From contig NZ_CP094929.1 of assembly GCF_022869165.1 (NCBI RefSeq), positions 372,001 through 436,000 of the forward strand: a stretch of 64,000 bases of DNA, given 5' to 3'. The position numbers and the translations under genes are program-made. Below are positions 32,825 to 49,504 of the stretch, piece after piece. Under the pieces are notes generated by a model that was given only the letters and a program-made list of their open reading frames with translations, was not told where the DNA came from and ran no database searches. Numbering within the stretch: the first letter of the stretch is position 1; each line of letters opens with the position of its first letter. The stretch comes from Sphaerochaeta associata. Lineage in GTDB: Bacteria; Spirochaetota; Spirochaetia; Sphaerochaetales; Sphaerochaetaceae.

Positions 32825-33703
32825 TCAATCCTCCTCGCTTTTTCCCACTCCTGCTGGTGGGGTGATGTGCTTGACTCCGAAGGCCAAGACAAACAGGGTG
32901 ACAACATACGGCAGTGACTGTACCAGCTGGGGTGGAACCCCCTTTCCTTGGAAGACGATCTGTACTGCATCGCTGAAGCCGAAGATGCCCGCACACCAGA
33001 TTGTATTGAATGGATTGTAACGGGCCAGTATGTTGATGACGACTGCGATATATCCGCGGCCTGCGGTCATATCACGGACGAACATATTCAGGTGATCAAG
33101 GGAGAGATACGTACCACCAAGACCGGCAAGGGCGCCGCAAATGAGCGTCCCGGCATACTTGTACCCATGCACCCTCAGTCCCATCGATGCTGCTGCCTTG
33201 GGGTTTTCTCCTACCATGCGCAGGCGTAGACCGAATTTAGTCCTGAAAAGCAGGAATGCCGAGATTGCCACCAGTATTAAGGATATAAGAAACAGGGGTG
33301 AGAATGGCGCTGCGTACTCCAAGGAAGGAACCTGGGGGCTGCTGCCACGGTTCTTCCAGACCAGTTGCATCAACAAGGTTGTGGTTGCCAAAGCGAGCAG
33401 GTTCAAGCCGATGCCGCTGATGACTTGGTTGACCCGATAGCGGATGCACAGCACACCGTGCAACAGGCCGAGCAGCATGCCTCCCAGTATTCCGCAGACT
33501 ATGCCTATCAATGGGCTTTGCGAAAGGTATGATCCGAGAACCGCACAGAAGGCTCCTGTCATCATCATGCTTTCCAATCCCAAGGCCATAATGCCCGCCC
33601 GAACAGAGAACACTCCTCCCAATGCGGCCAAAATAAGCGGCGTTGACATGCTGATTGTAGAAAGCAGCACGGATGGAATGAGATGAGTTAGGATATCAAC
33701 CAT
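32825..33703 (-). CDS. ABC transporter permease (nucleoside/BMP type, YufQ-like)
   Basis: The 292-residue protein has eight to ten hydrophobic helices and the conserved loop MVGENPKAAASMGLRVHGYKYAGTLICGALAGLGGTYLSL (bases 33090-33210), typical of branched-chain/nucleoside permeases of the BPD_transp_2 family. It overlaps the upstream permease gene by 8 bp. It pairs with that permease, with the double-ABC ATPase and with the BMP-family binding protein. Confidence 0.88.
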   Translation of the reverse strand: MVDILTHLIPSVLLSTISMSTPLILAALGGVFSVRAGIMALGLESMMMTGAFCAVLGSYLSQSPLIGIVCGILGGMLLGLLHGVLCIRYRVNQVISGIGLNLLALATTTLLMQLVWKNRGSSPQVPSLEYAAPFSPLFLISLILVAISAFLLFRTKFGLRLRMVGENPKAAASMGLRVHGYKYAGTLICGALAGLGGTYLSLDHLNMFVRDMTAGRGYIAVVINILARYNPFNTIWCAGIFGFSDAVQIVFQGKGVPPQLVQSLPYVVTLFVLAFGVKHITPPAGVGKSEED

Positions 33704-34760
33704 GACGCTTCCTCCTATGTGGTGTGAGTTCTCTTACCAGTGCCGGTGCAGAAACAAAAATGATGACAAGGCCTTGGATGACATTGATGAAATCGGTTGG
33801 GATTCGGGTGGTGCGATTAAGCACCATGCTTCCTGCGTTCAAAGCCCCGAAGATGATGGAAGCAAGAATGACCCCCAAGGGATGGTCTGCGGCCAAGGCT
33901 GCAACCGAGATGCCATTGAAGCCGTAACCAGGTGAAAAACCGACTATGAAGCGCTTATCCACACCCAGTACATGCATGGCACCGGCCAATCCTCCAACCG
34001 CTCCGCTGAGCATCATGCTGATTACTACTACTCTTGAGATGTTGATTCCTGCAGTCTGTGCAGCGAGGCGATTGTAACCGACGCTTCGGATTTCATATCC
34101 AAGGATTGACTTTTCCATAATTAAATAGATGAGTAAACACACCAACATTGCAAGGAAGAAAGCCATGGTCAACTGATAACCTGGGAATATGCGGCTCAAT
34201 TCTGCGGTCTGCTGAATGCGGTTCGTCTGGGCAGTCGGCCCGTCGGCTTTCAGCGGATAATTGCCCAGGTAGCTCGTAATGTTGATGGCAATCGTATTGA
34301 GGACAATGGTGGCGATAACCTCGTTGGATCCAAATTTTACCTTAAGGAAACCTACGAATCCGGCCAGCAAGGCTCCTGCTGCCGCACCGATGACAATCGC
34401 CAGGGGGAGATGCACAAAGAGTGGGAGTGGAAGCGGCATGGCCCCAATCCAGGCTGCGGCAATCGCACCCATGTACATCTGCCCTTCAACACCGATATTG
34501 ATCAGGCTTGCTTTCTTGGCTATGGCAAAGGCAAGTCCTGTAAACATCAGGGGAGTGGCTTGCACCAACGTCTGACTTACAGCCCTGAGACTGCCGAATG
34601 CCCCTTGGAAAATTGCTGCAAAGGCTTGCATAGGATTGAATCGGCACAGAGCCATGACAATCGCGCTGACAAGGATGGCCAAAACCAATGCACCAAATGA
34701 GAGGGAGAGCGAGTGCAAGGCCTTCTGGCTTTTATTCTGAGCTTCAATGCTGATCATCAT
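33696..34760 (-). CDS. ABC transporter permease (nucleoside/BMP type, YufP-like)
   Basis: The 354-residue protein belongs to the BPD_transp_2 family, with the motif SLINIGVEGQMYMGAIAAAWIG (bases 34452-34517) and the loop SVGYNRLAAQTAGINISR. It is longer than its partner at the N-terminus. AAGGGAG precedes its ATG, which lies inside the last codons of the ATPase gene. In Bacillus subtilis and streptococci, related YufOPQ/NupABC systems import nucleosides; purine or related compounds are the likely class here. Confidence 0.88.
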   Translation of the reverse strand: MMISIEAQNKSQKALHSLSLSFGALVLAILVSAIVMALCRFNPMQAFAAIFQGAFGSLRAVSQTLVQATPLMFTGLAFAIAKKASLINIGVEGQMYMGAIAAAWIGAMPLPLPLFVHLPLAIVIGAAAGALLAGFVGFLKVKFGSNEVIATIVLNTIAINITSYLGNYPLKADGPTAQTNRIQQTAELSRIFPGYQLTMAFFLAMLVCLLIYLIMEKSILGYEIRSVGYNRLAAQTAGINISRVVVISMMLSGAVGGLAGAMHVLGVDKRFIVGFSPGYGFNGISVAALAADHPLGVILASIIFGALNAGSMVLNRTTRIPTDFINVIQGLVIIFVSAPALVRELTPHRRKRHG

Positions 34761-36270
34761 TATCTCCCTTCTGATAGGATCCTGTCATCATCAATCCCAA
34801 TTCTGTTTCATTATAGGTTCCATTCTCACTGATCGAGACCAATTGACCCTCGTACAGAACGGCAACGCGGTCACTGAGCCTGAGTACTTCATCGAGGTCC
34901 GCCGAGATGAGAAGAATTGCCTTTCCTGCATCCCTGAGTGAGAAGATCTGTTCGTGGATGTACTCCATTGCACCAATATCGACACCACGTGTTGGTTGCG
35001 CCACGATGATGAGGTTGGGATCTTCGCTGAAAACCCTGGCAATGACGACTTTCTGCTGGTTTCCCCCAGAGAGGGTGGCGCAGGCCTGCTTGCTTGATCC
35101 TGCCTTGATTTGGTAGGAATCAATCTGTTGTTTTGCAAAATCCGTTACTGCAGAAGGTTTAAAGAAACCTGCCTTGGAAAACTGCTGTTTGTGATGATAG
35201 CCCAAAATTACGTTCTCTTCGATGCTCATCTGCGAGATCAAGCCTCGTGTAGACCTGTCCTCAGGCACATGGCCGATACGGTTCTCAAGAAATGTGATGG
35301 CATTGCCCGCCAAGGGTTTCCCTTCATAAACAAACGAATCGAATCGGGCCTCCTTGAGGCCTGTCAGAACTTCAATCAACTCACTTTGGCCGTTCCCCTC
35401 AATACCCGCAATGCCGAGTATCTCATGGTGGTGGAGGGTGAAGCTGATGTTTTTCAATACAGTATTCGACCCTTCGGTAAGGCAGAGATTTTCTACTGCA
35501 AGACAGACTTCCCCGCGTTGCTTGCTTCTTCGTGTGGAAGTGAGGCTGATATTCCTCCCTACCATCATCTGTGCCAAGGTACGTTCATTGGTGCCGGCAA
35601 CAGGAAGGGCGCTGGCGATGAGCCTGCCGTCCCTGAGTACAGAAAATGTGTCGGCAATTGCCAGTGTTTCCTTGAGCTTGTGAGTGATGAGGATGATGCT
35701 TTTCCCTTCATTCTTGAGCATGCGAAGGATGACAAACAACTCATCGACCTCCTGAGGGGTCAGGACAGCTGTCGGTTCATCGAGAATGAGAATGTCGGAT
35801 CCATGATAGAGGGCTTTGAGGATCTCCACCCTCTGTTGCACTCCCACCGATAATGATGACACACAATCGGTGGCCTGCATATGGAAATGGTAGCGGTCTA
35901 TGAGTGTCTGCACCTTCTCTGCTGCTTTGTGTATGTCAAAATACAAGCCTCGCTGTTTTTCATTTCCTACGACAATATTCTCTGTGACGGAGAGCACCGG
36001 GGCCAACATGAAGTGCTGATGAACCATCCCGATGCCGCAGGCAATGGCTTCGCGGGGGTTGTTGATTACCACCGGCTTGTCGTCGATTGTAATCGTCCCC
36101 GCGTCGGCCTTGCACATTCCGTAGAGAATGTTCATCAGGGTGGATTTCCCTGCTCCGTTCTCACCTAGCAGGGAGTGGATGGAACCCCGTTGCAGTGTGA
36201 ATGAAACGGTATCCAGAGCTCTTGTAAGAGGGAAATCCTTGATTATGTCCTGCATTTGGACCCTGCTCAT
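34744..36270 (-). CDS. ABC transporter ATPase with two nucleotide-binding domains (YufO/RbsA-like)
   Basis: The 508-residue protein contains two ABC domains. The first has Walker A GENGAGKSTL near residue 36, signature LSVGVQQRVEI and Walker B ILILDEPTAVL. The second has a degenerate Walker A GIEGNGQSEL, signature LSGGNQQKVV and NLIIVAQPTRGVD, where Asp-Glu of Walker B is replaced. This asymmetry is normal for RbsA/YufO-type proteins. It energises the two permeases downstream. Confidence 0.92.
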   Translation of the reverse strand: MSRVQMQDIIKDFPLTRALDTVSFTLQRGSIHSLLGENGAGKSTLMNILYGMCKADAGTITIDDKPVVINNPREAIACGIGMVHQHFMLAPVLSVTENIVVGNEKQRGLYFDIHKAAEKVQTLIDRYHFHMQATDCVSSLSVGVQQRVEILKALYHGSDILILDEPTAVLTPQEVDELFVILRMLKNEGKSIILITHKLKETLAIADTFSVLRDGRLIASALPVAGTNERTLAQMMVGRNISLTSTRRSKQRGEVCLAVENLCLTEGSNTVLKNISFTLHHHEILGIAGIEGNGQSELIEVLTGLKEARFDSFVYEGKPLAGNAITFLENRIGHVPEDRSTRGLISQMSIEENVILGYHHKQQFSKAGFFKPSAVTDFAKQQIDSYQIKAGSSKQACATLSGGNQQKVVIARVFSEDPNLIIVAQPTRGVDIGAMEYIHEQIFSLRDAGKAILLISADLDEVLRLSDRVAVLYEGQLVSISENGTYNETELGLMMTGSYQKGDNDDQH

Positions 36271-36297
36271 GCTCTACTCCTCGATCATTGGATGGAC

Positions 36298-37356
36298 TTA
36301 TTTATACTGATTGGCGGCTGTCCAGGAAGGAAGAGCCTCCATGCTGGTGGGAAGCACCAACTCTCCAGCGATGATCTTCTTGCGTGTTTGTTCGACTATG
36401 GTGCGAATCGATTCGGGAAGGGTGACATTGGAGTATTCAGTTGAATAACCTACTGCGCCTTCCTTCATGCCGCTGATCTGCAGTCCTGCACTCCAACTTC
36501 CATCAACCAAGGCACTTACTTCGTTGTAGACCATGTCGTTGACGTTTCGGATCGAGGTGGCGACGATATGATCAGGCTCGAGATGGTTTTGATTGCCGCC
36601 GACACCGAATGCATAGCGATTGACCTGCTTGGCAGCGTTGAACACGCCGAGACCGGAAGCTCCGGCAATGTGCTGAATGAAATCTGCCCCACGGTTGTAC
36701 ATGGAAAGTGCAATCTCTTTGCCCTTGCCGGGGTCGTTGAAGGCTCCTACGGTAGCCTGCAGCACATCACAATCGGGGTTGACGTATTTGACTCCGGCGA
36801 TGAAACCTGCCACACCTTCACGAAGGTTGGGGAAATCCATGCCCAGAATTACTCCTACGGTATTCTCCTTGTTTGCCTTGTCCATGGTACTGAGGGTTCC
36901 CAAACCTGCAACAACACCACACAAGAAGGTCTGTTCAGCCCATTTGGTGGAAACCGATCGAACCCCTTCAATTACGGCTGATGAATCGATGAAGGATATC
37001 TTTTGGTTGGGGAAGTCTTTTTTGATTTCTTTCAATGCTTCGAGCTGGTCATTGCCCAAAGCGATGATTAAATCATAGGTTCCTGCTTCAGCAAACATTC
37101 TGTTTTGCGGCAGGAAATCACTTGGTGACTTGGGTTCTACATAGTCAAACGTAATGCCCAAGGCTTCTTGAGCCTTTTGCAGACCCTCATAGGCCATATC
37201 GTTGAAATTCTTATCCCCGAGCCCACCGGTGGAGAGGACGAGCCCGATGCTCGGCGCCTTCGCCGGTTTTACCTCGGCACTTTCCTTGTTTCCCCCGGCA
37301 GTCAAAGTGAAGAGTGCCAAACATGCAATCAAGAACAGACAGGTCAGTTTTTTCAT
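36298..37356 (-). CDS. BMP-family (nucleoside-type) ABC substrate-binding protein
   Basis: The 352-residue protein begins MKKLTCLFLIACLALFTLTAGGNKESAE. This is a signal peptide in which the lipobox cysteine of the BmpA/Tmp/PnrA family is absent (TLTAGG). The family signature is DKNFNDMAYEGLQKAQE, with further motifs ALGNDQLEALKEI, ISFIDSS, and VGVILGMDFPNLREGVAGFIAGVKYV. AGGAGGA eight bases before ATG 37356 sets the start; an upstream in-frame extension is ignored. PnrA-like proteins bind purine nucleosides; the PHP enzyme encoded at the operon end may point to a phosphorylated or modified ligand. It is the first gene of the importer operon. Confidence 0.88.
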   Translation of the reverse strand: MKKLTCLFLIACLALFTLTAGGNKESAEVKPAKAPSIGLVLSTGGLGDKNFNDMAYEGLQKAQEALGITFDYVEPKSPSDFLPQNRMFAEAGTYDLIIALGNDQLEALKEIKKDFPNQKISFIDSSAVIEGVRSVSTKWAEQTFLCGVVAGLGTLSTMDKANKENTVGVILGMDFPNLREGVAGFIAGVKYVNPDCDVLQATVGAFNDPGKGKEIALSMYNRGADFIQHIAGASGLGVFNAAKQVNRYAFGVGGNQNHLEPDHIVATSIRNVNDMVYNEVSALVDGSWSAGLQISGMKEGAVGYSTEYSNVTLPESIRTIVEQTRKKIIAGELVLPTSMEALPSWTAANQYK

Positions 37357-37376
37357 TGGTAGTTCCTCCTGGGCTG

Positions 37377-37394
37377 CATACAGCCTTCTGTATG
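37377..37394 (-). promoter_or_regulatory. Inverted repeat upstream of the BMP operon
   Basis: CATACAG (37377-37383) and CTGTATG (37388-37394) form a perfect 7-4-7 repeat, ending about 20 bp upstream of the bmp start and overlapping its leader. It may be the site for the YesN-like response regulator encoded next to it, or an mRNA hairpin. Confidence 0.4.
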
Positions 37395-37487
37395 TACAGC
37401 GTATGAGGCGGTTACCCTTTTGCAAAGACTGAATCATGACCTGTTTCATCAAGGTTTTGACATTGAAGCCTCGACGTGGAGGTTCTT

Positions 37488-38984
37488 CTATCGTAATTTT
37501 GAGATTTCTTGTTCTTTTCTGACTTCTTCAGGATTGATGCCCATGTACTTCTTGTAAAGCTTGGAAAAATGGCTGGCAGAAGCATACCCGACCTGATTGG
37601 CAATGTCATAAATCTTGTCATTGGTTTCGGTGAGAAGCTTTTGTGCTTGTTGGAGGCGGAGCATCATAAGGTGGACACTGAAGTTCTCCCCTGTTTTCTC
37701 TTTGAAAAGACGGCTGAAGTACTCTGCAGAAAGACTGACATGGTCAGCGGTTTCGACTAGCGAGATGGGCTGCGAGTAGTGTTCGTTCATGTACGCCAAT
37801 GCTTTCTGGATTCGCTGCGAATATGTATCGCAGAGAGCTTCATCCAAGATGCATAGGGAATCATGTATCCGCTTTTTACATTCCTCGAATGAGTCGGGCT
37901 CCTTGCTTGCTTCAGTAATTTTGTTTTGCTGGGTATGCATGACTCGTTCCTCTACGGTAAAGAGCATGCGTAGGCAGGCTTCTTTGGCCCATTGAATATC
38001 CTCAAGCCCAACCCGACTTAGCTGTTCAAGCCAATGCGTTAGCAGGGTTCTGGTTTTATTACTATCTTGCAGTTGCAAGGCTTCAAATATCTCAGTACTG
38101 GCTTTCCAGATTTGTTGACGGTCGATTATTGGTGAGGAGTGGAAAAAGGACGTGGTTAGTTGTCTCTCTTGCGGATAAAAGAAACCGGCAAGCACCATTT
38201 GGTCGGTTTCATGCAGTGCGGTGAGCAATTCTGAAAGGTCGTTCCTAGTGTGAGAAACGCCTATAGTATTTTTCGTAGTCGTCAGTAGAGCGGAGGTCAG
38301 TTTCTGGATTCTAGCATTGAGGGCACTGCAAGTTGATTCTTGGAGAAACACCATAACTGTATGTTTTTGGAGGGCGGCAAGGCAGAGTGTTGGTTTTTCA
38401 AGTGCAATCATGTTGTCGATCACCTGTCGTTGGATGAAGAGATCTGTTTCCTCAAGGCCGATGAGACAGTACGGAAGGGCGTCTTGCATGCCATGCCGAT
38501 GCATGAATGTACGGGCGAAATCTCCATCCCCGGCATGTTGATACAGGTCATAGATGTCAAGGAATCCATTTGCGTACATGTCGGTTTGTTTGCCCTGAAG
38601 CAGGTCCTTTTTATGTTGATGCAGGGTTTCTATGGCTTCGATGAGGTCAGTGGCTCTCATCTCACTTTTGAGCAGGTAGTGCTTGGCCCCATAAGCGAGG
38701 GCGGTACGGGCATAGGAGAACTCGGCATAGTTGGAAAGGATGATGAAGTTCGTGTACGGAAGGCTTTGCAGGATCTGTTTCATCATCCCAAGACCATCCA
38801 AACCAGGCATCATGATATCAGTAATGACCAGATCGGGGCGGTATTGCAGGGCCATTTCAACGCCTTCCTGCCCGTTTCTCGCTTTGGCGATCAGCTTGAG
38901 GTCTCGCTGTGGTTCCCGTTCGATGCAATATGCAACCCAATCCCTGATCGGAGCTTCATCATCAACTACAAGGATGCTCAACAT
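37488..38984 (-). CDS. YesN-like response regulator, AraC-type
   Basis: The 498-residue protein has a receiver domain (ILVVDDEAPIRDW, phospho-acceptor Asp56 in DLVITDIMMPGLDG, Lys in HYLLKSE). A ~250-residue middle region and a C-terminal AraC domain follow (PISLVETADHVSLSAEYFSRLFKEKTG, then IYDIANQVGYASASHFSKLYKKYMG). The start at ATG 38984 lies inside the 3' end of the kinase gene (23-bp overlap). YesMN pairs typically control an adjacent ABC importer; here that would be the BMP operon beginning 130 bp downstream on the same strand. Confidence 0.9.
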   Translation of the reverse strand: MLSILVVDDEAPIRDWVAYCIEREPQRDLKLIAKARNGQEGVEMALQYRPDLVITDIMMPGLDGLGMMKQILQSLPYTNFIILSNYAEFSYARTALAYGAKHYLLKSEMRATDLIEAIETLHQHKKDLLQGKQTDMYANGFLDIYDLYQHAGDGDFARTFMHRHGMQDALPYCLIGLEETDLFIQRQVIDNMIALEKPTLCLAALQKHTVMVFLQESTCSALNARIQKLTSALLTTTKNTIGVSHTRNDLSELLTALHETDQMVLAGFFYPQERQLTTSFFHSSPIIDRQQIWKASTEIFEALQLQDSNKTRTLLTHWLEQLSRVGLEDIQWAKEACLRMLFTVEERVMHTQQNKITEASKEPDSFEECKKRIHDSLCILDEALCDTYSQRIQKALAYMNEHYSQPISLVETADHVSLSAEYFSRLFKEKTGENFSVHLMMLRLQQAQKLLTETNDKIYDIANQVGYASASHFSKLYKKYMGINPEEVRKEQEISKLR

Positions 38985-40746
38985 GGTGTGTTTTCTCCAA
39001 TTCGTTATAGACTCGTGCCGGAATGGTGATATGAATGGTGGTACCTTCATGTTCCTTGCTGGTGATTGAAAGTCCGAATGCGGTACCGTAATTCAGCTGG
39101 ATCCGTTCCTGAACGTTATGCAGCCCGACTTTATTCAGGGTGGCATTCTTTGCCAATGCAGTCTGAGCCTCATCCTCTTTCATTCCAAACCCACTGTCTT
39201 CAATGGCTATGTGAAGGATTTGTCCTTCTCTCTTGGTTCTGAGCGTGATGATGTTGATATGATTGAGTCCTTCGTTATGGAAAATGGCATTTTCAACCAA
39301 GGGTTGAAGAATGAATGAGGGAATTTCCAAATCGAGTGTTTCTTTTTGCAACTCTTTCTGCAGAATAAAACCGTCGGGATAGCGGTATGATTGTACCTTC
39401 ACGTAATGGTCGATGATGGCGATTTCCTCCGAAAGCGAGATGAATTGGTCGCTGCGATTCAAGGTTGCCCGCAAGAGTTTCGTGAAATGAAAGAGCATTT
39501 CGCTTGCATTCTCCGTTTTGCCCATATCGATGGAAAACCGTATGGAGCTGAGGGTGTTGTAGATGAAATGCGGATGTATCTGGGCTCGAAGGAAATCGAG
39601 CTCAGCCAGTCGTTTGGCTTTTTCTGTCTCTGTGATGGTTGCTAAAAGATTGTTGATTTTGTCCACCATGGTGTTGAAGGAGGCTGCCATCTGCCCGAAC
39701 TCATCATTTGTATGTACGGTTGCCCTTACGTTCAGGTCGCCTGAGGCAACGGTATCGAGCATCGTATTCATGCCGATGATCGGCTTTGCGGTCTGATGAC
39801 GGAAACGGGATATGATGTAAAGCATGGTGAGGATGCTGATGAAGAAGAGTATAATGATGAACCATTGCATCTTCTTCAGCGATGCCATGACAACTGCGAT
39901 GTTGCTTTGCTGGACCAAATACCAATCGGATCCGCCTATTTGCTGATAGAAAAGCATGGCCTGCTTATCCTGCGATCGTACATACCCCGATGCTCGTTGT
40001 CCCAGCCCGGCAGGATTTGCATCAAGGAAGTGAGTCCCGATGAGCGTTTTATCTTTTGCAGAGAGTACTGTGCCCTGCTCATCGACTATTACAAATATCT
40101 TCGATTCCGATTGCAGGTCCTTGTAGGAGTCGTACAGTACTTTCTCGCTGACATCGAGGATGACGTACCCGTAGAAATCGCCGTTGACCGGATCTATGAG
40201 CGGATTGCTGATACAGAAAGAGAATTGCTGTACCCCTCGTCTGCCAGGGTGCTCAATCATGGGGAGGATTGTGGGTGCGCTGCTTGAAAGTTTTCCGCTC
40301 TCCAAGAGAGAAGGCAGCACTGCATTCTCAGTGTATCGCGGTGAGATCTTGTGAAAGGACTGTTCCGATTCGTACAACACATGCAAGGTGATCAAGTTTG
40401 ATTCCGGGTAGGTGACCCAGATGGTATTATTCACTTTGTTGCCTAGATAGGTGGAAATTTCCTCCTCGAATGCTGCTTTCTGCTTATTTTTATGCGCATA
40501 CAACTTTTCAATGAGCACACTGTCATAGGAGACTTCCTGGGTAAGTGAAATAAGGCGATTCATGGTTTGAGCACTACTGTCCGTTGCGTATTTTTGCAAT
40601 GACCGGTTGTAACCAATGACCTCTTGTTCCACGGTTCGGTATAGATAGAAGAGGACAGTCCCTCCCATCAACAACGTGACGAGCGTCATGACCAGCGCGA
40701 GCAGAATGAACATCTTGGTGATATAGCTGGAGCGTGCCATCTTCAT
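38962..40746 (-). CDS. YesM-like sensor histidine kinase
   Basis: The 594-residue protein has one N-terminal membrane helix (about 12-36), an extracytoplasmic Cache-like sensor (about 40-300) and a second helix (IIILFFISILTMLYII). A HAMP region follows. The His_kinase domain has AQIHPHFIYNTLSSI, with the phosphorylated histidine, and the ATPase domain has PLVENAIFHN and EDSGFGMKEDE. This is the two-component partner of the adjacent response regulator. The ATG at 40746 is chosen just before the first helix; upstream in-frame codons give a 40-residue non-hydrophobic extension without a ribosome site. Confidence 0.88.
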   Translation of the reverse strand: MKMARSSYITKMFILLALVMTLVTLLMGGTVLFYLYRTVEQEVIGYNRSLQKYATDSSAQTMNRLISLTQEVSYDSVLIEKLYAHKNKQKAAFEEEISTYLGNKVNNTIWVTYPESNLITLHVLYESEQSFHKISPRYTENAVLPSLLESGKLSSSAPTILPMIEHPGRRGVQQFSFCISNPLIDPVNGDFYGYVILDVSEKVLYDSYKDLQSESKIFVIVDEQGTVLSAKDKTLIGTHFLDANPAGLGQRASGYVRSQDKQAMLFYQQIGGSDWYLVQQSNIAVVMASLKKMQWFIIILFFISILTMLYIISRFRHQTAKPIIGMNTMLDTVASGDLNVRATVHTNDEFGQMAASFNTMVDKINNLLATITETEKAKRLAELDFLRAQIHPHFIYNTLSSIRFSIDMGKTENASEMLFHFTKLLRATLNRSDQFISLSEEIAIIDHYVKVQSYRYPDGFILQKELQKETLDLEIPSFILQPLVENAIFHNEGLNHINIITLRTKREGQILHIAIEDSGFGMKEDEAQTALAKNATLNKVGLHNVQERIQLNYGTAFGLSITSKEHEGTTIHITIPARVYNELEKTHHVEHPCS

Positions 40747-40970
40747 GGGTGCAGTATATACGAGAGATGGGCAGCTGTCAGTAATGGGATTGTGTAGTGG
40801 TATTATGAAACGATGTTCCCGAGAAAAGGGCCGATGAGAAAGGTTGGTGGAGCAATCTATCGGCATTTTTCAGTTCCAATCAGATGCAAGACAAGAATGG
40901 AACAAGAATCCCCGGCAATCCTTCCTAAATATCAATAGATGCGAATGTCGGATGAGAGGTAGCATATTCT

Positions 40971-41416: not shown

Positions 41417-41463
41417 TTGTGAATCACAACTTGCTCTTTGCCATCTTTAGATTCTGATATACT
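41417..41463 (+). promoter_or_regulatory. Promoter and palindrome of the LacI/SBP fusion gene
   Basis: TTGTGA-A-TCACAA at 41417-41429 is a perfect 13-bp palindrome. A TATACT -10 follows at 41458-41463, only 8 bp before the ATG at 41472. There is no ribosome site, so the transcript is probably leaderless. The palindrome differs from the LacI-type operator at 43642 and may bind another regulator. Confidence 0.45.
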
Positions 41464-41471
41464 CTCTGAAC

Positions 41472-43628
41472 ATGGCGACAATAAAGGATATTGCAAAGGT
41501 AGCTGGTGTTTCCCAAGGGACCGTCTCAAATGTCTTGAACGGCAAGGGGAATGTCAGTAGTGACAAGATGCTTCGTGTTGAAGCTGCCGCCCATTCACTT
41601 GGCTATACGGCCAATGAAAAGGCTAAGATGCTTCGCAAAGGCTCAAGCAATATCATAGCTCTTATAATCCCCAATCCACAGGATCGCCATTACGTCGATT
41701 TTCAAATCTCATTTACGGCATTTATTGAAGCTCAAGGTTATGAATCAGTGGTGTACTATAGTGAAGACAATGCAGAACGGGAACGCTCATTGGTTGAGCA
41801 AATCAAGGCTTCCATGGCACCGGGTCTTGCTTGTTTTTCTTCGGTTGGAGCAGAAGCTTACAAGGTGTATCAAGAGTTGGGATTTGACCCTGCAAATGTC
41901 CTTTTTATAGAAAGAAAAGGAGGACCTCTTTGGATTGGTTTCGACTATGCAAAAGCTGCTGCTGATATCGCTGCCTATTTAAGACAATGTGAAGTAGATT
42001 CGATGTGTGTAGTTACTGAAGAGAAAGCGGATAACGACGAGACATTTATACAGTTGCTGCGTGAACAGTACCCATCTCTTTCTCACGTTCGAACCAATCT
42101 TTTCAATCGAAAATCTAAATTACTTAGTTTGCACGAGAGCCTGCCTCCTTCATGTGTTGTAACAACACATCCTGGGCTCGCCAGAGTTTGGAAGAATATC
42201 CAGCAGAGTTTCTTTCCAGAGACTCCAAGCAGACTCATAACCCTGAGTACGTTGAATACCCTGCCTGAAGAAGACTTTGAACGATATGAGCTCAATTACC
42301 GATATTTAGGAAGAAAAGCTGCTGAACAACTCCTTAATGCGCTTTCCAGCCATCAAACTTCTGCATGTGTTTTACCCAACAACGGGTTTCGAACCTGGTC
42401 GAAATCCAGAATGGAGCCTTGTTTATTGCGAGTGTTGCTTCTAGCAACTCCCCATAGTTCAGCTTTACAGCATTTTGCACAAAAATTCAGTCGAGAGACA
42501 GGTATTGCCATCTCTGTTGAGATAGCTTCCTATGAAAGAATCAATGAAGTACTTGTCTCTGAGACGCTTGCATCCGAGTATGATATATTGCGTATTGGTG
42601 CAGACGTATTTTCCTGGGATGCCCCCAAGGTGCTGAGACCGCTTGATGAAATTCCATATTCGGTGGATTCGGTGTTCACAAATCTGGTTGAAGGGGTGGA
42701 ACAACCCTATACCCATGTGAGGGGCAGACGGTACGCAATACCTATTTCTCCGAGTTTGCAAGTTCTGTTTTATCGAAAAGACCTATTTGAGAAGCCTATG
42801 TATCGAAGGATTTACCAAGAGACATATCATGAGACATTGAAGGTCCCTTCAACATTCAATCAGTATAATCGCATTGCCGGATTCTTCTCCAATGCAATCA
42901 ATCCAATTTCTCCCATTCAGTACGGCTCAACCTTGTTGTTGGGTAAGAAGCCTGTAGTTGCAGGCACAGAGTTCATGACCAGATACTTCAGCTATGCTCC
43001 CTCCCTTTTTGAAGAGGGTCTGCCCAGACTGATCTCTGATGAAGCAGAGCGGGCTATGCAGGATATACTCTCGCTACGGCACTCCATCAGTTCTCCCCAA
43101 ACATGGTGGACTGAAGCAGCACAGGAATTTGCCAATGGCAAAACGGCAATGACTATTCTCTTTTCCAATTTTGCTAGTGAATTCTTTGGTAAGAACTCTC
43201 AAGTCTCCGACAAGATCGGCTACAGCATGGTTCCGGGATGCAGACCTTTGCTGGGTGGCGGGAGTTTAGGGGTTACCCGCGCCTGCCGTCATCCTGAACA
43301 AGCATTACGTTTTATAGCGTGGATGGCTAGCGAACCTGTGGCCTCTGCGGTTGCTTTGTTTGGGGGAAATCCCATTACTGCCAGCACTCTCACCAATTAC
43401 GAGGTCATCGAAGCCTTCCCTTGGATGGAAATGCTCTCCACCGGGTTTACTCAAGCATTAGGACAACGAACTCCATCCACGAACTGCGCCCCATTCAATG
43501 ATCATAAGTTTGTAAACTTGTTGGGTGAAGCAGTATGGAGGTGTTGGTATGAACAGGTTCCGATTAAAAAATCATTGCAAAGGGCTCAACAAGTATATGA
43601 AAGAGAGAGGGAAAGTTTCATACGTTGA
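41472..43628 (+). CDS. LacI-type regulator fused to an ABC solute-binding-protein domain
   Basis: The 718-residue protein joins three modules. Residues 2-50 are a LacI helix-turn-helix (IKDIAKVAGVSQGTVSNVLNGKG with hinge ANEKAKMLRKG). Residues about 58-315 are the usual LacI/periplasmic-binding-protein type-1 sensor (NIIALIIPNPQDRHY). From about 335 on it continues as a type-2 solute-binding protein: ALQHFAQKFSRETGIAISVEI, YDILRIGADVFSW, RRYAIPISPSLQVLFYRKDLFEK, and FANGKTAMTILFSNFASEF. There is no signal peptide, so the second binding domain must work inside the cell. A normal LacI is about 340 residues. It is followed by a LacI-type operator and the mutase/PhnCDE/hydrolase operon, which it very probably controls, perhaps with two ligands. 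Confidence 0.85.
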   Translation: MATIKDIAKVAGVSQGTVSNVLNGKGNVSSDKMLRVEAAAHSLGYTANEKAKMLRKGSSNIIALIIPNPQDRHYVDFQISFTAFIEAQGYESVVYYSEDNAERERSLVEQIKASMAPGLACFSSVGAEAYKVYQELGFDPANVLFIERKGGPLWIGFDYAKAAADIAAYLRQCEVDSMCVVTEEKADNDETFIQLLREQYPSLSHVRTNLFNRKSKLLSLHESLPPSCVVTTHPGLARVWKNIQQSFFPETPSRLITLSTLNTLPEEDFERYELNYRYLGRKAAEQLLNALSSHQTSACVLPNNGFRTWSKSRMEPCLLRVLLLATPHSSALQHFAQKFSRETGIAISVEIASYERINEVLVSETLASEYDILRIGADVFSWDAPKVLRPLDEIPYSVDSVFTNLVEGVEQPYTHVRGRRYAIPISPSLQVLFYRKDLFEKPMYRRIYQETYHETLKVPSTFNQYNRIAGFFSNAINPISPIQYGSTLLLGKKPVVAGTEFMTRYFSYAPSLFEEGLPRLISDEAERAMQDILSLRHSISSPQTWWTEAAQEFANGKTAMTILFSNFASEFFGKNSQVSDKIGYSMVPGCRPLLGGGSLGVTRACRHPEQALRFIAWMASEPVASAVALFGGNPITASTLTNYEVIEAFPWMEMLSTGFTQALGQRTPSTNCAPFNDHKFVNLLGEAVWRCWYEQVPIKKSLQRAQQVYERERESFIR

Positions 43629-43641
43629 TATCTGAATATTT

Positions 43642-43674
43642 AAATTGACACGTTTCAATTTTGGATGCGATACT
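43642..43674 (+). promoter_or_regulatory. LacI-type operator over the promoter of the mutase/phn-like operon
   Basis: AAATTGACACGTTTCAATTT (43642-43661) has inverted arms AAATTGA/TCAATTT around a central CG and nearly equals the ideal LacI-family site TTGAAACGTTTCAA. Its TTGACA (43645-43650) is also the -35 box. After an 18-bp spacer comes GATACT (43669-43674). Binding would block RNA polymerase directly. Confidence 0.75.
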
Positions 43675-43712: not shown

Positions 43713-45224
43713 ATGTCCAACATTGACTCTGCTGCACTAGCTGAACGACTCTTTCATGCCTACGATATCAGGATTGATGCCGGCTTGCTTGATTATGATC
43801 ATGCTCGTCGGCTGTTTGATGCCATCGCAGTATATGCCAGAACCATATTGAAGGTTGATTCAGTTTTGTTATGTCGAGACGCACGGCTCAGTGGCAACTC
43901 TCTCTTGCAACAAGGCATCGAGCACTTCTCCTGCTTAGGGTTCTCCGTTCATACAGAATTGAATCCCGTGTCGACCTGCCAATTCTATTTCAGCTGTTCG
44001 CGTCTTGGCTCCATATTGGGCATCATGATAGGAGCTTCCCATAATCCGGGAAGATATACCGGCCAGAAGCTGGTAGGCCCTTATTGTATTCCCATCGCAC
44101 AGGATATTGGACCGGCAGGCGGGCTTACCCAAATTCGTCAATTGTTTATACAAGGTACAGCCCTTGATCTTGCTTCAAAGCGAGGAGACATCCTTTGCAT
44201 CGAAGACCGTACAGCATATGTACAGGCTTGCTTATCGTGGGCTGGTGTTGAAAAAGGTTCGTTGCATGGGCTTAGGGTAGTGCTTGATTTTCTCAGTGGA
44301 ACCGCTGCGGCTGAGGTGTTGCTCGGCTTGCAAGAAGCAGGAGTGCATTTTGTTGCAAGAAATGTAGTTCCTGACGGGAATTTTCCGTCAGGCCCGCCCA
44401 ATCCCATTCTAGAACAAAGTATAAAACCGACTGTAGCGTATCTGAAAGAACATCCTTCCTATGATTTCTGCTTCTGCTTCGACGGCGATGGTGATAGGGT
44501 CGATACAATCGCTCATGGCTTGGTAAACGTGGAACCGTCCTTGGTACTTGCATTTCTTGCCCCCGGGTTCAAGCGGTTTCATCCTGATTCAGCATCCACA
44601 GCTTTCGGATTCGATCCTAAAGCCAATCCTTTATTGGTTAATTCAATCAAGGCATATGGTGCCAAGCCCCAACTGATTCCCAACGGACACTCAAAGATCA
44701 AGGAACTGCTTGTCAAGCGAAATGCGCAGGGAATGGTGGCTGCAGTGGAGGAGAGTGCCCACTACTATATTACTCTTGCTTATGAAGGAAGAATTGTAGC
44801 TACAGAGAGCACTCTTCTCATTATACTGCTCTTTTTGAAAACTTGGAGAGAAGAGAAGCAACGCTTTCTCGATTTGCTTGACTTGCAGAATTCTGTCGAA
44901 CGTAAGCGGGAATGGGGGTACACCTACGCAAACGATAGTAATCGAGCAAAGGCTCTTTCGAGGGTTGAGAAAGCCTTTCTATCCCAGGGATTCGAATCGG
45001 TTAACACCCAAGCCGATGGAACACTACTTGGATCTTCGTTGCTCAGGATTGGAGCGGCTGGTGAAAGTCCAGTATGGGCTTGCATTTCTCAACGCTCGAG
45101 TGAAAGTGAGGAAGGGGTTGCACGCTGGTCGGTAGTAGCCTCCGATGCAGGACTACTCGCACAATGTGTAGATACGATTGATACGATTGCTGCCCAAGAT
45201 GCAATCGGATCCTATCAAGGATAA
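43713..45224 (+). CDS. Alpha-D-phosphohexomutase (phosphoglucomutase/phosphomannomutase family)
   Basis: The 503-residue protein has the phosphoserine loop MIGASHNPG near residues 106-114, the magnesium loop CFDGDGDRVD near 255-264, and a substrate loop AVEESAHYYITLAYEGRIVATEST (bases 44741-44812) equivalent to GEESGHY. It interconverts hexose 1- and 6-phosphates. The C-terminal phosphate-binding domain is divergent. It is the first gene of an operon with a phosphonate-type importer and an MBL hydrolase, so it probably handles a sugar phosphate from the imported compound and is not housekeeping. Confidence 0.85.
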   Translation: MSNIDSAALAERLFHAYDIRIDAGLLDYDHARRLFDAIAVYARTILKVDSVLLCRDARLSGNSLLQQGIEHFSCLGFSVHTELNPVSTCQFYFSCSRLGSILGIMIGASHNPGRYTGQKLVGPYCIPIAQDIGPAGGLTQIRQLFIQGTALDLASKRGDILCIEDRTAYVQACLSWAGVEKGSLHGLRVVLDFLSGTAAAEVLLGLQEAGVHFVARNVVPDGNFPSGPPNPILEQSIKPTVAYLKEHPSYDFCFCFDGDGDRVDTIAHGLVNVEPSLVLAFLAPGFKRFHPDSASTAFGFDPKANPLLVNSIKAYGAKPQLIPNGHSKIKELLVKRNAQGMVAAVEESAHYYITLAYEGRIVATESTLLIILLFLKTWREEKQRFLDLLDLQNSVERKREWGYTYANDSNRAKALSRVEKAFLSQGFESVNTQADGTLLGSSLLRIGAAGESPVWACISQRSSESEEGVARWSVVASDAGLLAQCVDTIDTIAAQDAIGSYQG

Positions 45225-45236
45225 TGGAGAGAATTC

Positions 45237-46043
45237 ATGGTTGAAATCAAGGAATTGGTTAAAAGGTATCCATCAGGACAAGAAGCGCTTAAAAGTGTGT
45301 CGTTGACACTGAAAGAGAATACTGTCATGGCACTTATAGGCCCTTCAGGAGCAGGAAAGAGTACCTTGATCAGGTGTATCAACCGCTTGGTGGAACCCAC
45401 CTCCGGTTCAATTATGATAAATGGCGTCAATGTCTGTGATCTCGGTAAAAAGGAACTTCGCTTGAGACGCAGGAAAATTGGTATGATTTTCCAGGAATAC
45501 GCCTTGGTTGATCGATTGACGGTTATGGAGAATGTACTTTCAGGTCAACTTGGATATGTTGGTTTTTGGCCCAGCACTTTGCGTCGTTTTCCTCAAGAAG
45601 TGGTCACTCAAGCCTACACACTGCTTGAGCGTGTGGGACTATCGGACTTTGTCGACAACCGTGCTGACCAGCTTTCAGGCGGGCAACGGCAGCGGGTGGG
45701 TATCGCCCGTGCCCTTATCCAGAATCCAGAACTCCTGTTGGTGGACGAGCCGACGGCAAGCTTGGATCCCAAAACCAGCAGGCAGGTTATGCGCTTGATT
45801 GTAGAATTGGTGCAGGAGCGTAATCTGCAGTGCATCATCAATATCCATGATGTGGTTCTAGCCAAGCAGTTTGCACAACGAATCGTTGGTCTTCAGGATG
45901 GTAGGATTGTCTTCGAAGGACAAAGTGCTGATTTGGATGTCAATGTCCTCAATACGATTTATGGAGAAGAAGATTGGAATATTTCGAAGAAAAAGAAAGA
46001 AGATGAGGACGACGAAGCCGACATCTTTTCCATGGGAGAGTGA
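45237..46043 (+). CDS. PhnC-like ABC transporter ATPase
   Basis: The 268-residue protein has Walker [11 protein letters not shown] near residue 35, signature [16 protein letters not shown] and Walker [14 protein letters not shown]. It also has the Q-loop [19 protein letters not shown], whose V-x-R-L-T-V form is typical of PhnC. The C-terminal tail is highly charged ([14 protein letters not shown]). It starts 12 bp after the mutase. It powers uptake through the two permeases downstream. Confidence 0.9.
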
Positions 46044-46045
46044 GC

Positions 46046-46843
46046 ATGCAAAAGGTGCAAACTACATGGAGAAAGAAACGAAAGATTGAAAGCCCTTTCC
46101 TGCGATACGGCATTCTTGTACTGGTGCTGGTCTACTTGTATCTGGCTGGGAAAGGCATTCAAGTAGACTCTGACCGCGTGGCACGAGGCCTTTCACGAGT
46201 GGGATTGTTATTCTCAGGATTTTTTCAACCTGATTTCCAATCGCGTGGCAAATACATCGTTGAGGGTATACTTGAGAGTGTGGCAATGACGTTGGCTTCA
46301 TCGGCTTTTGCCATGGTTTTGGCTATTCCTCTTGCTCTTGGTGCATCGAGAAATATTGTACCCAAATGGGTATACCTCATCTGCCGTGTCTTTTTGATGC
46401 TGATCAGAAGTCTGCATGTTGTGATACTGGGTATCATTTTTGTTATCATGTTTGGTTACGGTCCATTGGCTGGAGTACTGACCTTGGTGGTTAACGGAGT
46501 GGGCTTCATCGGCAAGCTGCTTGCAGAGGATATAGAGAATATTCAGGAAGAGCAACTGGAGGCCATTCGTGCCACAGGGGCAAATTGGCTACAGACAGTG
46601 GTGTATGCTGTTTGGCCGCAGGTTTCAACAAGATTCATCGGGTTGTCCATCTACCGTGCAGATATCAGCTTCAGACAGTCGACGGTCATTGGTATCGTCG
46701 GAGCCGGTGGGATAGGTGCAGTGCTCGACACGGCGATGGGGCGCTACGATTATCATACTGCTGGAGCGATTCTTTTGGTAATTATCATCATGGTTTTGGT
46801 AACCGAGTATGGCTCGAGTGCAATCCGAAGGAGGATAGTCTAA
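46046..46843 (+). CDS. PhnE-like ABC permease 1
   Basis: The 265-residue protein has about six membrane helices and the permease loop EDIENIQEEQLEAIRATGANWLQTVVYAVWPQV (bases 46529-46625), followed by the PhnE signature FRQSTVIGIVGAGGIG. GGGAG at 46034-46038 supports ATG 46046; a GTG six bases earlier also opens the frame. Confidence 0.88.
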   Translation: MQKVQTTWRKKRKIESPFLRYGILVLVLVYLYLAGKGIQVDSDRVARGLSRVGLLFSGFFQPDFQSRGKYIVEGILESVAMTLASSAFAMVLAIPLALGASRNIVPKWVYLICRVFLMLIRSLHVVILGIIFVIMFGYGPLAGVLTLVVNGVGFIGKLLAEDIENIQEEQLEAIRATGANWLQTVVYAVWPQVSTRFIGLSIYRADISFRQSTVIGIVGAGGIGAVLDTAMGRYDYHTAGAILLVIIIMVLVTEYGSSAIRRRIV

Positions 46844-47655
46844 TGCCCATCCACAAAGACGGAACAACATTTTTCTGGAAGCGTCGGACTGTTTCCCAGC
46901 AAAGGACTCGCTTCTTTTCCTTCCTTGTCATTCTTGTCATATTCCTCATTTCCTCCTCCTATATCGGCAGGCAGACAATGTGGGAGTTTGTTTCCGATGC
47001 ACCAGTGCAGATTCGTGACTTTGTAAGTCGTATGTTTCCCCCTGATGTAAAGTATTTCGGCAGGATTATGCCGGCTCTGTGGGATACTATCACTATTTCT
47101 GTGTTTGGCACCGGTATCGCAGTGGTTATATCATTTTTACTCGCGATTATGGCGGCTAAAAACACTACCCCCAACAGTGCAGTACGCATGGTGGTGCTGA
47201 CAGTCATTGTTGCCTCACGATCGGTCAATAGTATGATTTGGGCGTTGTTGATCGTCCAGATTGTTGGGCCTGGCTTATTGGCAAGCATCATTGCGATTGC
47301 TATCCGCTCGTTGGGTATGATCAGCAAACTTATGTATGAAGCAATCGAAGAAATCAATAAAGAGCCTATAGAGGCAATAACTGCTACAGGGGCAACGAAA
47401 GCACAAGTCTTTATGTATGGGTACCTCCCACAGTTGATGCCCTCATTTGTCGGGACTTCAGTCTATCGTTGGGAAAATAATATCAGGGAATCAACAATTA
47501 TCGGCATAGTTGGCGGAGGTGGTATCGGCATGTTGCTGAACTCTTCCATCAACCGCCTTGCATGGGATCAAGTGATGTCGATTCTGATTGTTATCTTTTT
47601 TACTGTTGTAGTTGCTGAATGGGTTTCTGCAAAGATTCGTAAATCCATATCGTAA
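46843..47655 (+). CDS. PhnE-like ABC permease 2
   Basis: The 270-residue protein has AIEEINKEPIEAITATGATKAQVFMYGYLPQL (bases 47338-47435) and IRESTIIGIVGGGGIG, the same layout as permease 1, so the channel is a heterodimer. Its ATG overlaps the stop of permease 1 (TAATG), with AAGGAGGA seven bases upstream. Two separate PhnE genes are common in phosphonate/phosphite importers. Confidence 0.88.
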   Translation: MPIHKDGTTFFWKRRTVSQQRTRFFSFLVILVIFLISSSYIGRQTMWEFVSDAPVQIRDFVSRMFPPDVKYFGRIMPALWDTITISVFGTGIAVVISFLLAIMAAKNTTPNSAVRMVVLTVIVASRSVNSMIWALLIVQIVGPGLLASIIAIAIRSLGMISKLMYEAIEEINKEPIEAITATGATKAQVFMYGYLPQLMPSFVGTSVYRWENNIRESTIIGIVGGGGIGMLLNSSINRLAWDQVMSILIVIFFTVVVAEWVSAKIRKSIS

Positions 47656-47699: not shown

Positions 47700-48686
47700 A
47701 TGAGAAAAAGTGTAGTATTGGTCTTGATTCTTTGTTTCGTAGCAAGCTTTGCCTTTGCCCAAGGGGCCAAAGAGCAGGTTGAACCGACACAGTACGGCGA
47801 ACTCGATCCTATGTATGTGGATAAGGATGGTGACATGGTCGCTGATCCTCCTGCCGACTCAAAGCAGTGGCTTGACCCCGATACCTTGGTGTTTGCCTAT
47901 GCACCGGTAGAAGATCCTGCAGTCTATGAAGAAGTGTTTGTGGACTTCCAAAAACACCTTGAGGCAAAGACTGGCAAAAAAGTGAGATGGTTTGCTGTTA
48001 CCAGCTATGCTACTCAGATTGAGGCAATGAGAGCCGGCCGCCTCCATGTTTCCGGTTTTGCGGCAGGAACTGTACAGGATGCAGTCAATACCGGTGGATT
48101 TGTCCCGATGGTTATTATGGGTGCCGAAACCGGCATGACCGGGTATAAGATGGCGATTATCGTACACAAGAACTCAGGTATTACCACCATTGAAGGCTTG
48201 AAGGGTAAGACCATCGCATTCGTTTCTGAGAGTTCAAACTCTGGTTACAGTGCTCCTCGAGCCATTCTGTATGATCAGTTTAAGATGCTGCCTACCAAAG
48301 ACTATAAAGTAGCCTTCTCTGGCAAACATGACAACTCAATTGCTGGTGTTTTCAACGGAGACTATGATGCCGGAGCCATTGCTGATACAGTATTGCAGAG
48401 AATGGTTGCAGGAAACCGTGTTCCTGATCCTGCAGAATGGATGACGCTGGTTTTTGAGTCTCAAACATTCCCCCCGACAGCTTGGGGCGTAAACTATCGT
48501 ATAGCACCTGAATTGCAGGCAAAGATACGTGATGCGTTTCTCAGTTACAACTGGGCAGGTACGTTGATGAAAGAGACTTGGCCGGAGAACGATAGGTTTA
48601 TCCCGGTCAATTATGAGAAGGATTATGCCATCACTCGAGCTATCAGAGCTGGTAGTGAGGAAGTTGCAAAACTATTGGGCGAGTAA
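47700..48686 (+). CDS. PhnD-like ABC substrate-binding protein
   Basis: The 328-residue protein has a signal peptide ending AFAQGAKE without a lipobox cysteine. The mature part is a PhnD/PtxB-type fold: LVFAYAPVEDPAVYEEVFVDFQKHLE and AVTSYATQIEAMRAGRLHVSGFAAGT. The conserved FVSESSNSGYSAPRA, where Ser/Gly residues bind phosphonate or phosphate, follows, with the typical DYDAGAIADTVLQRMV. Relatives bind phosphonates, phosphite or phosphate esters. With a mutase and an MBL hydrolase in the operon, a sugar phosphate (ester or cyclic) is a plausible ligand. Confidence 0.85.
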   Translation: MRKSVVLVLILCFVASFAFAQGAKEQVEPTQYGELDPMYVDKDGDMVADPPADSKQWLDPDTLVFAYAPVEDPAVYEEVFVDFQKHLEAKTGKKVRWFAVTSYATQIEAMRAGRLHVSGFAAGTVQDAVNTGGFVPMVIMGAETGMTGYKMAIIVHKNSGITTIEGLKGKTIAFVSESSNSGYSAPRAILYDQFKMLPTKDYKVAFSGKHDNSIAGVFNGDYDAGAIADTVLQRMVAGNRVPDPAEWMTLVFESQTFPPTAWGVNYRIAPELQAKIRDAFLSYNWAGTLMKETWPENDRFIPVNYEKDYAITRAIRAGSEEVAKLLGE

Positions 48687-48722: not shown

Positions 48723-48745
48723 TATCAATGAATGAAGGGTTAAAA

Positions 48746-49504
48746 ATGGTAGTAGATATTCTTGGGTATTCTGGGAGCATGCAAACTCAGGATTCTTCCA
48801 ACACGAGTCTGTTGATTACATCCGGGAGTACCAGTATTCTCGTCGATACTTCCGGTAGTCCGGCACAAGCTTTGCTTCAACGCAATTTCAATCCAGACTT
48901 ATTGGATGCAATTGTCTTGACACATGCACACGTAGATCATCTATATGCCCTTCCTTCTTTGTTGCATAATCTCTGGATGCGGAAGAGGCAGAAAGAACTG
49001 TTGATTGTGGGGAATTCTGAAACTTTGGAAGCTGCGAAACAGTTGTATCAATTTTTCCATCTGGACTGTAAACCGAGTCTCGATTCGATTATTTGTTGGG
49101 CTGACGCATGCAAGCAAGTTGGTGACATTGAAATAGAGACGTTTTCACTTTATCACCGGCCTCAAATGACTACGCAAGGGTACACGTTTTTTGATGGAAC
49201 GGGGAAAGTGGCATACTTTCCTGACAGTGTGGTTCAAAAACCCTATCCTGATTGTGCAGAAAACTCCCAACTATTGATTCACGAGGTCGGTGGACTGGAT
49301 GTTGATAGGCAGGCGTTGCATCATGATGGTCATTCAAGCGCTTTTGAAGTTGCACAGCTGGCAAAAACGCTCAATGCACAGGCATTGCTGTTAGTCCATC
49401 TCCCTCCCTCAAAAGCGATTCATTCTGCAATACTCGAAGAAGCAAGCGGTATCTTTCCAACTGTCCGCATGCCTATGGAATATTCTTCCTTTATCGTATC
49501 CTGA
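48746..49504 (+). CDS. Metallo-beta-lactamase-fold hydrolase (PhnP/RNase Z-like)
   Basis: The 252-residue protein has the metal motif LTHAHVDHLYALP (H-x-H-x-D-H) near residue 60, a later Asp/His set (YFPDS, HHDGHSSAFEVAQLA) and LVHLPPS. NTSLLI and ILVDTSGSPAQ mark the fold's start. PhnP enzymes of this fold open ribosyl 1,2-cyclic phosphate; others cleave phosphodiesters. AAGGG six bases before ATG 48746 makes it the start (an ATG at 48728 has none). It is the last gene of the operon. Confidence 0.75.
   Translation: MVVDILGYSGSMQTQDSSNTSLLITSGSTSILVDTSGSPAQALLQRNFNPDLLDAIVLTHAHVDHLYALPSLLHNLWMRKRQKELLIVGNSETLEAAKQLYQFFHLDCKPSLDSIICWADACKQVGDIEIETFSLYHRPQMTTQGYTFFDGTGKVAYFPDSVVQKPYPDCAENSQLLIHEVGGLDVDRQALHHDGHSSAFEVAQLAKTLNAQALLLVHLPPSKAIHSAILEEASGIFPTVRMPMEYSSFIVS

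Follow-up and report, generated by a model that had tools for sequence, protein, structure and literature searches.

Repressors of the LacI/GalR family (LacI, PurR, CcpA, Cra) have an HTH, a hinge helix with an intercalating Leu and a PBP1 fold, and are linked to palindromic operators with a central CG and to local control of uptake genes; these traits are common to the family and the regulator analyzed here. Two further kinds of system resemble it. SgrR and DsvR are known transcription factors with an HTH and a C-terminal SBP_bac_5 domain (PMC13060122), and DNA-binding domains have been combined with binding proteins in engineered chimeras, such as the glucose-responsive LacI-GGBP and benzoate sensors (PMC6079105). 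No description of a natural LacI-PBP1-SBP architecture was found in searches of the literature available without subscription, and the words "fusion", "fused" and "solute-binding" are all absent from a survey of LacI regulons (PMC4052901). The LacI-SBP kind of repressor is real and widespread, and it is apparently undescribed.

A gene of this architecture lies in the window, i.e., the whole 64,000-nucleotide stretch of the Sphaerochaeta associata genome that was analyzed (contig NZ_CP094929.1, positions 372,001 to 436,000). The features of the locus are listed in Table 1.

Table 1. Features of the fusion locus, in window positions
Feature	Position	Strand	Basis
Extended -10 element, about TGATATACT	41452..41463	+	Ends about 8 nt upstream of ATG; similarly placed in L028, L064, L065; probable leaderless start
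LacI-SBP fusion regulator gene, 718 aa	41472..43628	+	Intact ORF; Pfam LacI and SBP_bac_8/SBP_bac_1; full-length orthologues
LacI-type HTH and hinge helix, residues 1-59	41472..41648	+	PF00356 at 3-48; hinge Leu54 nearly invariant
PBP1 (LacI effector-type) domain, residues 60-303	41649..42380	+	Model vs. Cra 3o74; fold retained without canonical effector residues
Cluster-B-type solute-binding domain, residues 314-718, proposed sensor	42411..43625	+	5iai structural match; conserved and fusion-specific residues
Operator TTGACACGTTTCAA (20-bp form AAATTGACACGTTTCAATTT, 43642-43661)	43645..43658	+	Only zero-mismatch genome site; recurs at fusion loci
Sigma-70-type promoter of target operon, TTGACA-18-GATACT (-35, spacing, -10)	43645..43674	+	Promoter scan; -35 inside operator
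Phosphohexomutase (PGM/PMM), first gene of presumed target operon	43713..45224	+	PF02878/PF02879; same order in L028, L029
phnC-like ABC ATPase	45237..46043	+	TIGR02315 321 bits, above cut-off
phnE-like permease 1	46040..46843	+	TIGR01097 269 bits, above cut-off
phnE-like permease 2	46864..47655	+	TIGR01097 275 bits, above cut-off
phnD-like extracellular solute-binding protein, the transporter's own	47700..48686	+	PF12974 190 bits; TIGR01098 above cut-off
MBL-fold hydrolase related to cyclic phosphodiesterases/RNase Z/PhnP, last gene of presumed operon	48728..49504	+	PF12706

Domain architecture and the candidate sensor

The fusion ORF is a single unbroken frame of 718 codons. Pfam matches were obtained for the LacI HTH (1.7e-14, 53.7 bits against a cut-off of 27) and for SBP_bac_8 (PF13416, residues 336-632, 2.9e-17, 63.8 bits, above the cut-off), SBP_bac_1 was also matched, and the PBP1 domain gave no Pfam match at E ≤ 1. 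SBP_bac_5 was not among the Pfam domains of the protein. The HTH begins at residue 2-3, and an export signal or lipoprotein N terminus is absent from the protein, which is therefore no extracellular binding protein. The whole chain was modeled with AlphaFold2 on a 15-row alignment (pLDDT 88, pTM 0.79), and residues 312-713 of the model form a full-length ABC solute-binding fold, as recognized via 5iai (Z 43.2 over 379 residues). Further structural matches of this domain were SmoF (Z 39.8), Mycobacterium tuberculosis UgpB with glycerophosphocholine (6r1b, Z 35.8), and a dinucleotide-binding protein (Z about 34.5). When the N-terminal part (about residues 1-312, PBP1 58-311) was modeled alone (pLDDT 92), the PBP1 domain matched effector domains of the LacI family (Cra, 3o74, Z 26.4, rmsd 2.5, 250 residues), as well as ribose-binding PBP1 folds. 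The hinge residues N48, A51, and L54 are kept in at least 90% of 49 fusions, so the helix with the minor-groove Leu is present. The earlier note had described a cytoplasmic LacI-type regulator in which an HTH, a PBP1 fold, and a complete type-2 solute-binding domain follow one another in one frame with no signal peptide; the ORF, the Pfam matches, and the models all bear this description out, including the complete solute-binding fold of the C-terminal part.

For the PBP1 domain, 15 classical LacI proteins of the same taxonomic family served as the reference for the fusions. From the classical proteins to the fusions, the frequency of R192 dropped from 93 to 0%, D262 from 93 to 4%, Q274 from 87 to 0%, and P142 from 100 to 17%. 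The replaced motifs were the Arg of R-x-x-G-Y/F, the Asp of F-D, the Gln of R-Q-P, and N-x-F (N71, F73); by analogy with LacI and PurR, we take positions R192, D262, Q274, N71, and F73 to be effector contacts. The HTH residues were the same in both groups. Across the 49 fusions, the median pairwise identity was 0.66 for the HTH, 0.24 for PBP1, and 0.34 for the SBP domain, and positions conserved in at least 90% of them numbered 28 out of 59 in the HTH/hinge, 5 out of 244 in PBP1, and 45 out of 403 in the SBP domain. Fusion-specific residues of the SBP domain included R374 (53/54), Q430 (54/54), N566 (52/54), and R504 (54/54), which, like W546, F471, and F472, hardly vary among the fusions and are less frequent, or rare, among the free binding proteins.

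Membership of the LacI family does not depend on the canonical effector residues, but their loss argues against sensing by PBP1. On the simplest reading of these conservation patterns, the SBP domain would be the sensor and PBP1 mainly a relay or dimerization scaffold. Because the PBP1 fold is retained and a few of its positions (E104, F192, Y276) hardly vary, the domain could bind a different ligand. A regulator with two inputs, in which operator binding is tuned jointly by one effector in PBP1 (e.g., a sugar phosphate product) and a second, the imported compound, in the SBP domain, is rather unlikely. Such integration of two ligands had been suggested before: both folds are indeed intact in the models, and the sister fusions of about 760 aa (see below) keep a PBP1 domain that Pfam recognizes, but in the group of the window protein the LacI effector residues are replaced and the sequence of the domain drifts, and in the window protein the domain escapes Pfam detection.

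Solute-binding proteins naturally dock onto permeases, and with regulators such as MalT/MalK, parts of a transporter control transcription. Both facts would suit an SBP domain that serves as a protein-protein module, touching the transporter ATPase or permease, or oligomerizing, and so relays transport activity to the repressor. This is improbable, however, because docking normally occurs at the extracellular side of the permease, out of reach for a cytoplasmic protein, and because the signature residues of the SBP domain are constant across different types of partner transporter (Ugp-type, Phn-type, nucleoside symporter).

Operator, target operon, and ligand

The sequence AAATTGACACGTTTCAATTT sits between the fusion gene and the downstream operon, and the operator core was also found in both orthologous loci, with small changes in L028. 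The zero-mismatch site TTGAMACGTTTCAA is unique in the 3.55-Mb genome. With at most one mismatch, TTGACACGTTTCAA occurred in intergenic positions beside 29 of the 51 non-redundant fusion loci, compared with 0 for 30 permuted motifs; with at most two mismatches, it was found at 38 loci (mean of 0.9 for permuted motifs), and 13 loci had no such site, some of them probably because the contigs end early. The operator that the earlier note had placed at 43642-43661 is thus present, palindromic, and conserved beside the homologues. One-mismatch sites elsewhere in the genome (1807170, 2446739) were about as frequent as those of the reversed control, and therefore only the local operon was counted as a target.

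The target promoter has its -35 box in the TTGACA half of the operator. In 30 out of 39 related operator sites, a -10 box with at least 5/6 matches was located 16-19 nt from TTGACA (22 at exactly 17), compared with 4.0 (maximum 10) for shuffled tails. The operator-linked promoters at fusion genes were mostly of the form TTGACA-N17-TATAAT, and the genes behind them were mostly transporter binding proteins, GDPD, and MBL genes. As the operator overlaps the -35 box, binding there would block RNA polymerase, and on this sequence arrangement the fusion is regarded as a putative local repressor. The recurrence of the operator beside 29 of the 51 fusions, mostly on promoters, makes the whole family look like local promoter-blocking repressors.

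The gene order phosphohexomutase, phnC, phnE, phnE, phnD is common to both orthologous loci and is followed by the MBL hydrolase in L028, the uncut locus. Below the equivalog cut-offs, the MBL protein of the window matched NF041851 (65 bits) as well as RNase Z models. About 2.2 kb past the presumed operon, there is a complete lacto-N-biose phosphorylase gene (PF09508, PF17385, PF17386; 51730-53877). Positions 32825-40866 carry an ABC transporter set (two permeases, a double ATPase, and a lipoprotein-like binding protein) next to a histidine kinase/AraC-type response regulator pair on the minus strand. At other loci, the neighbor of the fusion is a member of a family of proteins of about 353 aa for which neither Pfam nor NCBIfam has a match (L098:10205-11263, with homologues in L081 and L084); in L081, this gene has its own copy of the operator.

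The fusion gene of the window probably gives a leaderless transcript. The window, L028, L064, and L065 all have an extended -10 element (TGnTATACT or TGnTATAGT) that ends 6-9 nt upstream of the start codon. At several of the more distant homologues, a Shine-Dalgarno-like sequence precedes the start instead, so the leaderless start proposed earlier is supported for the window and its nearest relatives only.

The transporter type at the fusion loci varies and includes Ugp-like, 2-aminoethylphosphonate-like, PhnCDE (window), and, in enterics, nucleoside:H+ symporter systems. Recurrent enzymes are MBL hydrolases related to PhnP/RNase Z/cyclic phosphodiesterases, GDPD, and metallophosphoesterase, often together with MgtC; a phosphoester-hydrolase-type gene (MBL, GDPD, or metallophosphoesterase) was at most four ORFs away in 37/51 loci, and the source genome has 4 GDPD and 14 MBL matches over the cut-off in total. 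The phosphohexomutase is an addition at the window locus. The neighboring genes suggest an organophosphate ligand (a phosphodiester, phosphonate, sugar phosphate, or cyclic sugar phosphate), a suggestion held with about even confidence. Against it stands that the solved structures nearest to the SBP domain have sugars and polyols among their ligands, besides phosphodiesters. The MBL fold is also a diverse one, and the window MBL protein shares no more than 24% identity with its closest counterpart at the other loci. Position 376 is Asp in 51 out of 54 fusions and Gly in the window protein and its clade, and the ligand of the window protein may therefore differ from that of the rest of the family.

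It is considered fairly likely, as a whole, that the protein acts as a local repressor of the LacI type whose added cytoplasmic SBP domain took over sensing, and that an organophosphate ligand induces the phn-type operon. When no ligand is present, a dimer would bind TTGACACGTTTCAA, cover the -35 box of the PGM-phnC-phnE-phnE-phnD-MBL operon, and block RNA polymerase. Closure of the SBP domain on the imported compound, or on an early product derived from it, would be relayed through the PBP1 scaffold to the hinge helix, so that the operator is released and the uptake and breakdown genes are switched on. The ligand would act by induction rather than co-repression, and the fusion probably uses a type of nutrient-binding domain that normally acts outside the cell to sense a phosphorus-containing nutrient inside it and to switch on the genes for its uptake and breakdown.

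Distribution and origin of the fusion

Orthologues were found in two congeneric species, one of full length (58% identity, G020) and one a contig-cut copy (67%, G009). In the taxonomic family of the source organism, 35 out of 139 genomes had a strong match; many of these were full-length fusions, and others were the HTH alone or a free SBP. When GTDB species genomes were scanned with the fusion alignment, 313 relatives were obtained. Nearly all of the best 80 of the 313 span about residues 1-710, and these 80 come from Spirochaetota, Lachnospiraceae and other Bacillota, Paenibacillus, Erysipelothrix, Gilliamella, Klebsiella, Proteus, Serratia, and Erwinia. Full-length homologues thus occur in Spirochaetota, Bacillota, and Enterobacterales, including Escherichia coli plasmids: the fusion is present in 46 of the 5,426 complete E. 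coli genomes and plasmid-borne in 44 of the 46. The copy that was inspected, on plasmid pTB-nb1 (L146:3849-9175), lies in an MgtC - nucleoside-type MFS - MBL/LacI-SBP module. The RefSeq name for the fusion is "extracellular solute-binding protein", and the entries so called, those on E. coli plasmids included, are most likely cytoplasmic repressors.

The same taxonomic family has a sister group of LacI-SBP fusions of about 760 aa (L031:7224-9488, L030, L032, L033, L034, L045, L046), whose PBP1 domain is still recognizable (PF00532, 43 bits, tested in L031). Where flanking sequence was available, these genes adjoin sugar ABC transporter and peptidase-like genes. The group is possibly an evolutionary intermediate. 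In G108, a truncated 235-aa copy of the regulator (L044:1378-2085) retains the HTH and only part of PBP1, and this gene is perhaps decaying.

A tree was built from 58 fused SBP domains, 24 binding proteins of neighboring transporters (UgpB/NgcE-like), and 31 free ones. The fused domains formed one clade (support 0.96; main group 0.987), and the binding proteins of the neighboring transporters fell outside it. The transporter of the window uses a PhnD-family protein, which belongs to another Pfam family than the fused domain. Capture of the transporter's own binding protein, which the earlier note had offered as one origin, was rejected on this family difference and the tree; a recent capture of that kind by a LacI repressor would fit the co-location of transporter and regulator in general, but the fused clade stands apart from the neighboring and the free binding proteins alike, which leaves it very improbable. 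A single old fusion explains one clade, with the neighbors' proteins elsewhere, better than repeated capture. A sequencing error joining two genes, which the earlier note had named as a possible refutation, is ruled out by the full-length homologues in independent genomes, which have the same architecture; an artefact or pseudogene of any sort (two genes joined by error, or a non-functional relic) has next to no probability, being favored by nothing except the truncated G108 homologue, whereas full-length homologues exist independently in three phyla and their domains and operators are conserved.

A broader account is put forward tentatively, with somewhat less than even confidence: a single ancient fusion would have given rise to an undescribed cross-phylum repressor family, in which sensing moved from PBP1 to the SBP domain and PBP1 became a relay scaffold; its members would sense a shared organophosphate nutrient of the phosphodiester type and occupy operators overlapping -35 boxes. 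The family would then illustrate how a transcription factor gains a new sensor, a second binding domain being added as the original one degenerates. It also provides a regulator, an operator, and a set of genes with which a little-known pathway for phosphorus nutrients, in bacteria of the gut and the environment, can be tested.

Comparison with known systems

The fusion protein belongs to the LacI family and carries an additional domain, the presumed new sensor. It differs from the LacI/GalR repressors in its extra C-terminal type-2 solute-binding domain of 400 residues and in the lost canonical effector residues of PBP1, and its neighbors point to phosphate esters, not plain sugars. The fused domain has the complete two-lobe fold of cluster-B ABC solute-binding proteins (5iai, SmoF, MalE3, and M. 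tuberculosis UgpB 6r1b; 360-380 residues, Z 35-43), but it is joined to a repressor, has no signal peptide, is about 20% identical to them or less, and carries its own signature residues.

With the engineered LacI-PBP chimeras, the fusion shares the principle that a DNA-binding domain and a binding protein make a new sensor. The chimeras are man-made and their binding protein replaces the effector domain, whereas the window fusion is natural and its SBP domain was added behind the effector domain; natural LacI-SBP fusions are also guides for biosensor design. Like SgrR and DsvR, the fusion appears to be a transcription factor of the cytoplasm whose presumed sensor is a solute-binding domain. 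It has another HTH class, a PBP1 domain in between, and other targets. Judged by its domains, it is similar in principle to the SgrR-type regulators but not a member of them, as it carries SBP_bac_8/1 and not SBP_bac_5.
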